37,157 nt of DNA from positions 1 to 37,157 of the forward strand of contig JAMOOX010000099.1 in assembly GCA_027065045.1 (NCBI GenBank), read 5' to 3'. Below the pieces are notes generated by a model, which was not told the DNA's origin, did no database searches, and saw only the letters and a program-made list of their open reading frames with translations. Positions 1 to 4,973 of the stretch are shown here, one piece after another; positions within the stretch are counted from its first letter, which is position 1; each line of letters starts with the position of its first letter. The DNA comes from Campylobacteraceae bacterium. Lineage in GTDB: Bacteria; Campylobacterota; Campylobacteria; Campylobacterales; Sulfurovaceae. Made by a program: the position numbers and the translations under genes.

Positions 1-124
1 TTCTTTTTTCTCTAATTTGAGTATGTCTATTAATATTCTTTTTTCTTTTTTCTCTAATTTGAGTATGTCTATTAATATTCTTTTTTCTTTTTTCTCTAAT
101 TTGAGTATGTCTATTAATATTCTT
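1..124. repeat. 42-bp tandem repeat, about 3 copies, in frame
   Basis: The segment CTCTAATTTGAGTATG recurs at 10, 52 and 94, an exact 42-bp period, and copies are essentially identical. Because 42 is a multiple of 3 it adds 14 residues per unit to the partial gene on the minus strand. The array touches position 1, so the true copy number is not visible. Confidence 0.95.
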
Positions 125-1087
125 TTTATCTACTTCTAATTGTTTTATCATTTTATTTTTATCAATTAAAGATTTTATATTTATAATTTTATCTATAAAT
201 TCTCTAATATCTTGATGTAAATTATATGAAAATACTTTTAGTAATGTTTTGTTGTCAATATCTTGAATAATATCTTCTTCATTAAATAATATAATTTTAT
301 CATTATAATCAACATAGTTTTTATTTTGTAGATAATTTTCAAGAATAGTATAATAAAAATCTAAATCATTTGAAGCTAAATTATCTTTATCAAAGATATT
401 CATTTTAAATAAAGTATTTGAAATAAAATCTACACTTTTTTGTGTTTTTGATTTAGATTTATATTGTATATTAATTGACTCATTTTCATTTAATTTATTT
501 AGTTCTTCTATTGTAAGGTATCTAGTAGCCAAAATATCTTTATCTATGATAGAGTTAAATATATGAAATAGTTTAATTTTTTCTTTATTACTAATCATAG
601 CCATATCTTTACTATCAATTAAAGGTATTTGCAAATTATAATTTATAGGTATATCTTTTTCAATTTCATTAAACTCAAAATAAAATGAGATTGAAACTTT
701 ATTTTTTAAAAAATTATCTATTATAATTTTTAATCTTTTAGGAGATATTATTTTATAACTTTTTTTATTTTCTAATTTATTTAGAGATGAGAAACTAGTT
801 AATCTTTTAAGAGAGGATTTAATACTTTTTTTAGAAAAAAGAAAATTATTATTTTGGATAGTTTGTATTAATTCAGATGATAAAAAATATCTATTGATTT
901 CAAAAGGTGGTTGAGTTTGATTTAAAAGTTTAATATATTGAAATATAAGTTTATCATTTTCTCTTGTAAGTTCTTGATATAAACTAAAGATAACTTTTTT
1001 ATTTCGTATAAATGGGGATAATTTATCTCTATTTTGTTGTATCTCTATTTGAATTTTATCATCAAATAAAATATAAACTAATCTCAT
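1..1087 (-). CDS. Unrecognised protein downstream of radical SAM maturase, C-terminus off window
   Basis: An open frame of 362 codons runs from an ATG at 1087 to the window edge with no stop, so the gene is 3'-partial. It starts 1 nt after the maturase stop, which implies translational coupling and a shared role in the peptide locus. The protein is Lys/Asn/Ile-rich and has no signal peptide, membrane segment or motif I can name. The last 40 or so residues seen are a 14-residue basic repeat (unit KKNINRHTQIREKR) present three times, encoded by a 42-bp tandem repeat. It could be a peptidase, transporter accessory or regulator of the RiPP locus, but no function can be assigned. Confidence 0.8.
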   Translation of the reverse strand, partial: MRLVYILFDDKIQIEIQQNRDKLSPFIRNKKVIFSLYQELTRENDKLIFQYIKLLNQTQPPFEINRYFLSSELIQTIQNNNFLFSKKSIKSSLKRLTSFSSLNKLENKKSYKIISPKRLKIIIDNFLKNKVSISFYFEFNEIEKDIPINYNLQIPLIDSKDMAMISNKEKIKLFHIFNSIIDKDILATRYLTIEELNKLNENESINIQYKSKSKTQKSVDFISNTLFKMNIFDKDNLASNDLDFYYTILENYLQNKNYVDYNDKIILFNEEDIIQDIDNKTLLKVFSYNLHQDIREFIDKIINIKSLIDKNKMIKQLEVDKKNINRHTQIREKRKKNINRHTQIREKRKKNINRHTQIREKR

Positions 1088-1088
1088 T

Positions 1089-2426
1089 TTAATCTACTTG
1101 ATATGTGTATTTTATGCTACCTATCATCTTTTCATAAATACTATTTTTATACTCAGTTGTACAGTCAATTTTAATTAATGGTTGTAGTTCTTTAATTTCT
1201 GCTTGTTTCCCTGCAAAATGGTACTCATCAATACGACACCCTCCACCACAAATATATTTTAGTTCACAACTCATACAAGGCATAACATTATCTACGCTTG
1301 ACCATTCATAATAATAATTTGCTTTATTAATTATAGTTTTGAAATCATCTTTATTTGTAGCAATAGGTTCTATATCTTCAACTCTATTACATAAGAAAAA
1401 TTTACCATCACTTGATATAGAGATACCACCATAACCACAATTTTTTAAGCCTGTTCCTATCTCCATATTATGAATAAAATTTCTAATTTCAGCATCAGGA
1501 TATAAACTATTTGCCAATTTTCTTGTAATTGTAGAATATTCTTTAGCTTTATCTTGAATAAGTGCTTGTACTTTTCTACCAGTAATTAACTTTTGAGAAA
1601 TTTTAAAATATAAATACTCACTTTGTAGTTCATTTAAGAGTTGTTTAGCAAAATTAATATATGTTTTTTCTATCTCTTTTACATTCTCAAGAGTTGGTGT
1701 AGTAGCAATAACAGTTTTTACTCCAGCTTTTACAAATAATTTAACATTATCTAATGCTTGATTAAAATTTCCCTTACCTCTAATTATAGAATTTAACTCT
1801 TCATCTGTTCCATCTAAACTAATTTGAACTTCATCTATATACAGTTTACTTTTCTCTATTTTATCTTTATCCCAAAGAACACCATTTGTTAAAAGTGTAA
1901 CTGACATATTACTCTCTTTTGCAAACTTTACGATATCAAACCATTCTTTATATTGTAAAATTTCACCACCTGTAAATGTAATTGCTGTAATTCCATTATC
2001 TTGTGCATTTTTTATAATTTTAAACCATTCTTCTTTTGCTAATTCATTAATTTTAGGTTTACCTGAATACATATAACAATGAGTACAAGCTAAATTACAA
2101 TCATTTGTAAGATAAATATACAATCCCTCATTATGTGGTGCATTGAATTTTACAGTTTGAGTAGATATAAAGTTTCTATCAATAATTTGACTTATAACAA
2201 AATTAAAATCTTCTTCACTATTTGAAAGTTTTGCAACTTTACCTAATGTATACTTCTCATATAAAAGTCCAAATATTTTTTCTTGTTCTTCATTGAATAA
2301 TCCTATCCAATTTGCAGTATTTTGTGAAATGACTAATAAATAATTATTAATTTTATTATAAAACAAATTTTGTGGTAAATCTAAAACTGTATCTTCTGTT
2401 AATTCTATTTCTAAGCTTTCTTCCAT
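1089..2426 (-). CDS. Radical SAM/SPASM peptide maturase
   Basis: A 445-residue radical SAM enzyme that probably modifies the small peptide encoded just upstream. The 4Fe-4S cluster motif CxxxCxxC is at C110, C114 and C117, followed by the SAM-binding GGE motif (FTGGEIL, about residues 151-157). The C-terminal SPASM domain shows C330, C346, C384, C387, C393, C397 and C422, enough for two auxiliary clusters. Residues 1-95 look like a PqqD/RRE-type peptide-recognition region (inference from position and size). This layout is typical of RiPP maturases that form thioether or C-C crosslinks. The chemistry here is unknown. It is cotranscribed with the precursor gene and the gene that follows. Confidence 0.9.
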   Translation of the reverse strand: MEESLEIELTEDTVLDLPQNLFYNKINNYLLVISQNTANWIGLFNEEQEKIFGLLYEKYTLGKVAKLSNSEEDFNFVISQIIDRNFISTQTVKFNAPHNEGLYIYLTNDCNLACTHCYMYSGKPKINELAKEEWFKIIKNAQDNGITAITFTGGEILQYKEWFDIVKFAKESNMSVTLLTNGVLWDKDKIEKSKLYIDEVQISLDGTDEELNSIIRGKGNFNQALDNVKLFVKAGVKTVIATTPTLENVKEIEKTYINFAKQLLNELQSEYLYFKISQKLITGRKVQALIQDKAKEYSTITRKLANSLYPDAEIRNFIHNMEIGTGLKNCGYGGISISSDGKFFLCNRVEDIEPIATNKDDFKTIINKANYYYEWSSVDNVMPCMSCELKYICGGGCRIDEYHFAGKQAEIKELQPLIKIDCTTEYKNSIYEKMIGSIKYTYQVD

Positions 2427-2453: not shown

Positions 2454-2479
2454 TAGATAGTGAAACAAATCACTATCTA
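2454..2479 (-). terminator. Intercistronic hairpin between precursor and maturase
   Basis: A perfect 10-bp inverted repeat (TAGATAGTGA / TCACTATCTA) with a 6-nt loop lies in the leader between the precursor stop and the maturase start. Hairpins in this place in RiPP operons commonly act as partial terminators or RNA-stability elements giving more precursor than maturase mRNA. That role is inferred here. Confidence 0.5.
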
Positions 2480-2500
2480 TTTGTTTTGATCAAAACAAAT
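2479..2500. promoter_or_regulatory. 22-bp perfect palindrome after precursor gene
   Basis: Positions 2479-2500 form a perfect 22-bp palindrome centred on TTTTGATCAAAA. It abuts the next hairpin, sharing one base, and begins 4 bases after the precursor stop codon. It could be a second stem of a terminator/attenuator on the minus-strand transcript or an operator for a dimeric regulator. Sequence alone does not decide between them. Confidence 0.5.
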
Positions 2501-2503
2501 TTT

Positions 2504-2605
2504 TTAGTTATTATTTACACTACAACTTTTAAAACAATATAACGAACCTATTCTTGTATCATCTTTAATTATTTTTTTTGTAATTTTAAAAACTATTTTT
2601 TTCAT
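2504..2605 (-). CDS. Putative RiPP precursor peptide, 33 aa
   Basis: A 33-residue ORF (ATG at 2605, TAA at 2504) directly upstream of the radical SAM maturase. A near-perfect Shine-Dalgarno AAGGAGG at 2615-2621 sits 9 nt from the ATG, far stronger than most sites in this window. The N-terminal half is a Lys/Ile-rich leader (MKKIVFKITKKIIKDD). The C-terminal part, TRIGSLYCFKSCSVNNN, carries two cysteines (C24, C28) and ends in an Asn run, as expected for a core peptide to be crosslinked. Location, size, leader/core layout and RBS all support a RiPP precursor. I do not recognise the family. Core boundary and modification are unknown. Confidence 0.75.
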   Translation of the reverse strand: MKKIVFKITKKIIKDDTRIGSLYCFKSCSVNNN

Positions 2606-2614
2606 ATAACAGTA

Positions 2615-2621
2615 CCTCCTT
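2615..2621 (-). promoter_or_regulatory. Strong Shine-Dalgarno of precursor peptide
   Basis: AAGGAGG on the minus strand, 9 nt from the ATG at 2605. It decides the start of the short precursor gene and suggests high translation. Confidence 0.8.
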
Positions 2622-4790: not shown

Positions 4791-4865
4791 TGGTGACCCC
4801 TAGGAGACTCGAACTCCTGTAACATGGATGAAAACCATGGATCCTAACCACTAGACGAAGGGGCC
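4791..4865 (-). tRNA. tRNA-Glu (TTC)
   Basis: The reverse complement folds as a tRNA. Acceptor GGCCCCT pairs with AGGGGTC, then discriminator A and an encoded CCA. The anticodon arm is CATGG-TTTTCAT-CCATG with anticodon TTC. The T-arm contains GTTCGAGTC. It is identical to the next tRNA at 4899-4973. Confidence 0.95.
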
Positions 4866-4898: not shown

Positions 4899-4973
4899 TG
4901 GTGACCCCTAGGAGACTCGAACTCCTGTAACATGGATGAAAACCATGGATCCTAACCACTAGACGAAGGGGCC
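4899..4973 (-). tRNA. tRNA-Glu (TTC), second identical copy
   Basis: The sequence is identical to 4791-4865, including the encoded CCA. The copies are 33 nt apart, and this one is nearer the shared promoter at 4994-4999, so it is the first gene of a two-tRNA transcript. Confidence 0.95.

Follow-up and report, generated by a model that had tools for sequence, protein, structure and literature searches.

Gene content of the locus

The window, by which we mean the whole stretch of DNA analysed (37,157 nucleotides), corresponds to contig C99 (37157 bases) from a genome of 2.06 Mb, and the contig ends at window position 1. Near this end, three open reading frames follow one another on the minus strand (Table 1): an ORF of 33 codons, then, after a 77-nt spacer, an ORF of 445 codons that encodes a radical SAM/SPASM protein, and finally a third ORF that runs off the contig. 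The first-pass annotation had proposed the short ORF as a RiPP precursor for the neighbouring radical SAM enzyme, and had pointed to the AAGGAGG ahead of it. The ORF and its sequence, the Shine-Dalgarno motif and the radical SAM/SPASM gene on the same strand were all found where they had been placed. What had been overlooked is a third conserved gene, which codes for an ATPase of the SNF2 family. The 33-residue peptide has a basic putative leader (KKIVFKI..., approximately residues 1-20), and its predicted core is YCFKSC(SVNNN).

Table 1. Features at the contig end of the window, with positions on the forward strand.
Feature	Position	Strand	Remarks
SNF2-family ATPase gene, N-terminal part (~317 aa plus repeats)	1..1087	minus	cut by contig end; probably continues on contig C44 (L048:3-1505)
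42-bp tandem repeat, 3 copies	1..127		in frame inside the ATPase gene; 14-aa unit NINRHTQIREKRKK
StsB-like radical SAM/SPASM peptide maturase gene	1089..2426	minus	complete, 445 aa; assigned from Cys motifs and profile matches
Second RNA stem-loop, precursor-maturase spacer	2455..2478	minus	no U-tract on the coding strand
First RNA stem-loop, precursor-maturase spacer	2479..2500	minus	holds the palindrome TTTGTTTTGATCAAAACAAA; kept in L004
Candidate precursor peptide gene	2504..2605	minus	33-residue ORF MKKIVFKITKKIIKDDTRIGSLYCFKSCSVNNN; homologues L004:7825-7926 and L008:1314-1406
Shine-Dalgarno AAGGAGG	2615..2621	minus	9 nt ahead of the ATG of the 33-aa ORF

Two further features of the window were recorded. 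The short ORF is adjoined by a 94-aa ORF (2699-2983), probably an Rpn-family remnant, whose similarity to the Rpn family nuclease/transposase model (TIGR01784) is confined to the C-terminal end of that model. At 4791-4865 and 4899-4973 there are two tRNA-Glu(TTC) genes in tandem, which are almost identical in sequence.

Conservation of the peptide and of its maturase

The same arrangement was found in the Sulfurimonadaceae MAG BB10 (locus L004), where the peptide MKKIVFKITKITIKDDTRIGSMYCFKSCSVNNN is identical to that of the window at 30 of 33 residues and the maturase is 87% identical. A second relative (G413, locus L008), which belongs to another family of the same order, carries the peptide MKDFTIAKRDLEDEIVFYYCFKYCGNANPN ahead of a maturase that is 42% identical. 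The first-pass annotation had named the lack of a conserved short ORF before maturase homologues as the observation that would speak against a precursor; both Campylobacterota homologues of at least 42% identity have one, so that the proposal survives and is now supported by homologous ORFs. An encoded precursor and a radical SAM peptide maturase kept as a pair, by which radical SAM RiPPs are recognized, are thus seen in three loci (window, L004 and G413), which are the only ones with the peptide upstream of a maturase (n=3).

Since the AT-rich sequence of the window has many ORFs of 25-60 aa, the short ORF might be spurious and conserved merely through a conserved intergenic region. However, DNA identity between the window and BB10 amounts to 90% in the peptide gene and 87% in the maturase gene vs 58% in the 300 nt upstream, and the ten differences in the peptide gene are distributed 2/2/6 over codon positions 1/2/3, i.e., mostly at third positions. 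Moreover, the diverged G413 peptide aligns to that of the window with a score of 45, a value reached by 0 of 5000 dinucleotide shuffles of the same G413 intergenic region (best shuffle, 36). By these comparisons the conservation of the short ORF exceeds chance, and we regard a spurious ORF as highly improbable.

In the alignment of the three peptides, M1, K2, F6, I8, K10, D15, I19, Y23, C24, F25, K26, C28, N32, and N33 are invariant. Given the invariance of Y23, C24, F25, K26, and C28, the conserved core motif of these sequences is YCFKxC. Of the motif GSLYCxxxC, which had been suggested as shared, the GSLYC portion is only partially retained, with GSMYC even in the close relative BB10.

The maturase of the window contains both the CxxxCxxC motif (C110, C114, C117; PF04055, 1.7e-28) and the full seven-cysteine SPASM pattern (C330, C346, C384, C387, C393, C397, C422) by which the enzymes of radical SAM RiPP pathways are recognized. 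Its top curated match is the StsB model NF045574 (2.8e-38), which is also the best match of all four maturases found (window, L004, G413, and a Treponema enzyme described below). The score nevertheless misses the model cutoff (131.9 bits vs 625), as do those for TIGR04403 (SkfB; 106.5 vs 300 bits) and NF047865 (PapB; 68.4 vs 340 bits). In the PDB, the top match of the maturase profile is SkfB (6efn; 1.6e-31), a thioether sactisynthase. Judged from these matches, the protein is a RiPP-type radical SAM/SPASM enzyme that is related to thioether-forming maturases and lies outside the curated families; the distance to the StsB cutoff is too great for homology to indicate the type of bond.

In such radical SAM enzymes, a recognition domain is often found at the place taken here by the N-terminal ~95 residues, and the first-pass annotation had called this part RRE-like. 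A Pfam search gave no match at all for the maturase N-terminus, and hence none to a PqqD/RRE-like domain; the N-termini of relatives match the StsB model weakly (E 0.005 and 0.11), and that of the window enzyme itself does not match. Two AlphaFold models, one for the maturase and one for its N-terminal part, were built from a two-sequence alignment and had pLDDT values of 39 and 43, too low to be of use. An RRE in this enzyme is thus no more than putative.

The SNF2-family ATPase and the distribution of the gene pair

The third ORF of the window is 71% identical to the corresponding L004 protein across the first 317 residues and then enters the in-frame repeat. Copies of the same 42-bp repeat precede the motor half of an ATPase in open frame at the start of another contig of the genome (C44; L048:1-110). 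The repeat has therefore probably interrupted the assembly here, and C99 and C44 probably join within an intact ATPase gene. A truncated or broken gene was considered and rejected, as the second half on C44 is in open frame with intact motor motifs. This minisatellite is missing from the L004 homologue, which is the next ORF after the L004 maturase and matches the SNF2-related domain PF00176 (4.5e-37; protein incomplete). In G413 the ATPase (L027) is a complete protein of 737 aa with SNF2 and Helicase_C domains. The order peptide, maturase, ATPase is thus identical in 3/3 Campylobacterota loci. No convincing Pfam match was obtained for the N-terminal ~300 residues of the ATPase; when this domain was searched in 399 genomes of the order, only the window's genome matched. 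Since G413 was not among the matches, it was probably outside this sample.

On C44, the ATPase gene is followed by genes for a pentapeptide-repeat protein and for a second M17 aminopeptidase, the genome's other M17 gene being located on C149; neither the pentapeptide-repeat nor the M17 gene next to the cassette is conserved in G413. Further downstream, on the opposite strand, lies a gene for a YhcG (DUF1016) PD-(D/E)XK nuclease (L048:4337-5365).

A maturase of 34% identity is encoded on the Treponema saccharophilum plasmid pTS1 (NZ_AP025289.1, L031:6929-11677). An SNF2 ATPase ORF of 812 aa, for which the record annotates a later start, begins no more than a few nucleotides after it, and next come a methyltransferase gene and two Cys-rich short ORFs, MVLTWNVAENELQNIKCFGCFNCCCVMANMGGGGPGSASENDNG and MKTLTLTWNVELIPEKVYTAASGGCYYTFKNCNECEKTVHKNS. 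Both have good Shine-Dalgarno sequences, with inferred starts, and share TWNV; the second contains GCYYTFKNC, which resembles GSLYCFKSC (residue-shuffle frequency 0.012). We consider the two ORFs candidate precursors. On the evidence of these genes, the maturase-ATPase pair is kept across two phyla. An FRG-domain gene is located just upstream of the pair on pTS1, and this gene, together with YhcG on C44 and the Rpn fragment of the window, gives a hint of an accessory or defence-like setting of some loci; the neighbours of the G413 cassette look ordinary.

The family appears to be rare. Strong maturase matches were obtained in 1 of 175 genomes of the window's family, in 1 of 121 genomes of the family of G413, and in 2 of 397 genomes across the phylum. 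Two other Campylobacterota families gave none (0/104, f6; 0/22, f8) and neither did a Bacillota sample (0/392 genomes), all of these being sets without an internal positive control. Scans of viral contigs, with the maturases (as alignments and as the Treponema sequence) and with the ATPase N-terminus, detected no convincing relative, and phage records gave none. Among plasmids, a further match to the maturase occurs in Streptantibioticus; a Mycetohabitans plasmid match (26%) was rejected as a family member, the helicase neighbour being absent.

Other candidate RiPP loci were noted as well. A sister radical SAM family, 27% identical to the window maturase, is represented in two genomes (G362, L009:1480-2790; G449, L010:1480-2793), where 37-aa ORFs lie upstream of the maturase genes (L009:1319-1432 and L010:1336-1449). 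The C-terminal 14 residues of these peptides, QRSQCRTTHKRQDC, are identical in two bacterial families, the DNA of this part differing by synonymous changes alone; the central leader region, by contrast, has diverged. A UvrA-like ATPase comes next in G362. The sister family is likely a second new RiPP family. The leader motif KKIVxK, common to the window peptide and the sister family, is suggestive only (residue-shuffle frequency 0.05-0.06). Other Campylobacterota radical SAM genes also adjoin candidate precursors (G446, L014:1183-1440; G540, L012:879-1184; G011, L018:2877-3161), which carry C-terminal CGMGMQCSGGGGQCGMGMNC or CGMSYSC repeats and a Cys/Gly-rich SCSGCGCACFSSGGAGHGCG tail.

The spacer between the peptide and maturase genes folds into stem-loops in all three Campylobacterota loci (folding z of -3.6 in the window, -3.4 in L004, and -3.4 in L008). 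Since the coding strand lacks a U-tract, those of the window may be read as processing, stabilizing or (partially) attenuating elements rather than as a clear terminator, and they may favour the production of more precursor than enzyme. Stem-loops directly 3' of a short ORF could also make an attenuator, and attenuation commonly involves short ORFs before an operon, so that the ORF might encode a regulatory leader peptide, or else an unmodified small protein, and not a maturase substrate. However, its conserved part is a Cys-containing C-terminal motif and not a run of codons for a single amino acid, and the adjoining gene encodes a RiPP-type radical SAM enzyme. In addition, the same gene pair has Cys-rich short ORFs nearby in Treponema, and the sister maturases follow a short ORF of their own, whose C-terminal core is invariant. 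We therefore consider a regulatory leader or an unmodified protein improbable.

Proposed function and relation to known systems

The conservation of the peptide, of its pairing with the maturase, of the gene order and of the protein domains suggests that the locus is a three-gene RiPP cassette, composed of a precursor, a StsB-like radical SAM/SPASM maturase and a dedicated SNF2 ATPase, with a modified peptide that most likely stays inside the cell. We hold this account to be probable, and our best reading of the sequences is that of a new and rare radical SAM RiPP family. After its presumed translation, the precursor would probably be bound through its leader by the maturase, which would use a 5'-deoxyadenosyl radical and probably form a thioether between C24 and/or C28 and a residue close by. 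A small thioether ring within YCFKxC is the likely, predicted modification. In the window's genome, the second M17 aminopeptidase could trim the leader.

In the window's contigs and in G413, the cassette has neither an exporter gene nor an immunity gene next to it. As no exporter gene is adjacent, we favour, with low confidence and as a speculation, a modified peptide that would act together with the SNF2 ATPase inside the cell, in a role such as regulation or defence. More specifically, the crosslinked peptide might be an intracellular ligand or cofactor of the dedicated ATPase, which would then be a peptide-controlled DNA translocase for regulation or defence, and not a secreted product; we find this version rather doubtful.

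Alternatively, the product could be an ordinary streptosactin-like bacteriocin, either a sactipeptide or a ranthipeptide, that would be exported to kill competitors, with an SNF2 gene that is incidental or serves immunity or maintenance. This would agree with the StsB model as the top maturase match in all members, with the unnested small rings of streptosactin, from a Cys to the residue three positions on, which are compatible with C-x3-C (PMC8172795), and with L004, where an ABC transporter with a C39-like domain and an HlyD protein are encoded ~4-7 kb upstream, with opposite-strand genes between, so that export at this locus is possible. However, the maturase scores far under the StsB cutoff, neither the window's contigs nor G413 have an exporter or immunity gene beside the cassette, and the SNF2 ATPase stays beside the maturase at 42% and at 32-34% identity in two phyla, which argues against a chance neighbourhood. 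A bacteriocin of this kind is a possible but not a likely explanation.

The cassette provides the Campylobacterota with a rare, probable RiPP family whose core motif has no match elsewhere, and it links a radical SAM maturase of peptides with a DNA motor of the SNF2 type. The open-access full-text literature, which mostly leaves out subscription papers so that an absence from it is weak evidence, gave no description of such an SNF2/helicase and radical SAM peptide pair, and almost nothing on radical SAM RiPPs in Campylobacterota. Should it be true that peptide and ATPase cooperate, such an intracellular role would be unusual among crosslinked peptides.

With ZorD (Zorya type I), DpdE, and DrmD (DISARM), the cassette shares only the SNF2/Helicase_C motor domains. 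The partners ZorA/B/C and those of Dpd and DISARM were not seen in the ORF lists of the loci, and the incomplete L004 ATPase remains under the respective cutoffs (ZorD, 103.8 vs 1500; DrmD_b, 58.1 vs 950; DpdE, 51.5 vs 500 bits). SkfB, the sactisynthase of the sporulation killing factor (TIGR04403), is likewise a radical SAM peptide maturase and the top PDB match, but the window maturase is under the family cutoff and has another substrate and other neighbours. Ranthipeptide maturases (PapB, NF047865; CteB, which we take to be PDB 5wgg) are radical SAM/SPASM enzymes that also act on Cys-containing peptides; the similarity is weaker and under the PapB cutoff, and the window precursor has only two cysteines. 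The streptosactin system (GggA/GggB, StsB) differs in that the window has a YCFKxC core and an SNF2 ATPase, that a GggC-type protease and an Rgg regulator were not seen, and that the maturase reaches 132 of 625 bits. Nevertheless, both systems combine a short precursor with two core cysteines and a SPASM radical SAM enzyme, the StsB model (NF045574) covering residues 13-400 of the window maturase. The thioether rings of streptosactin connect Cys25 with Ser28 and Cys31 with Gly34 (PMC8172795), a size in keeping with the rings that might form in the YCFKSC peptide.
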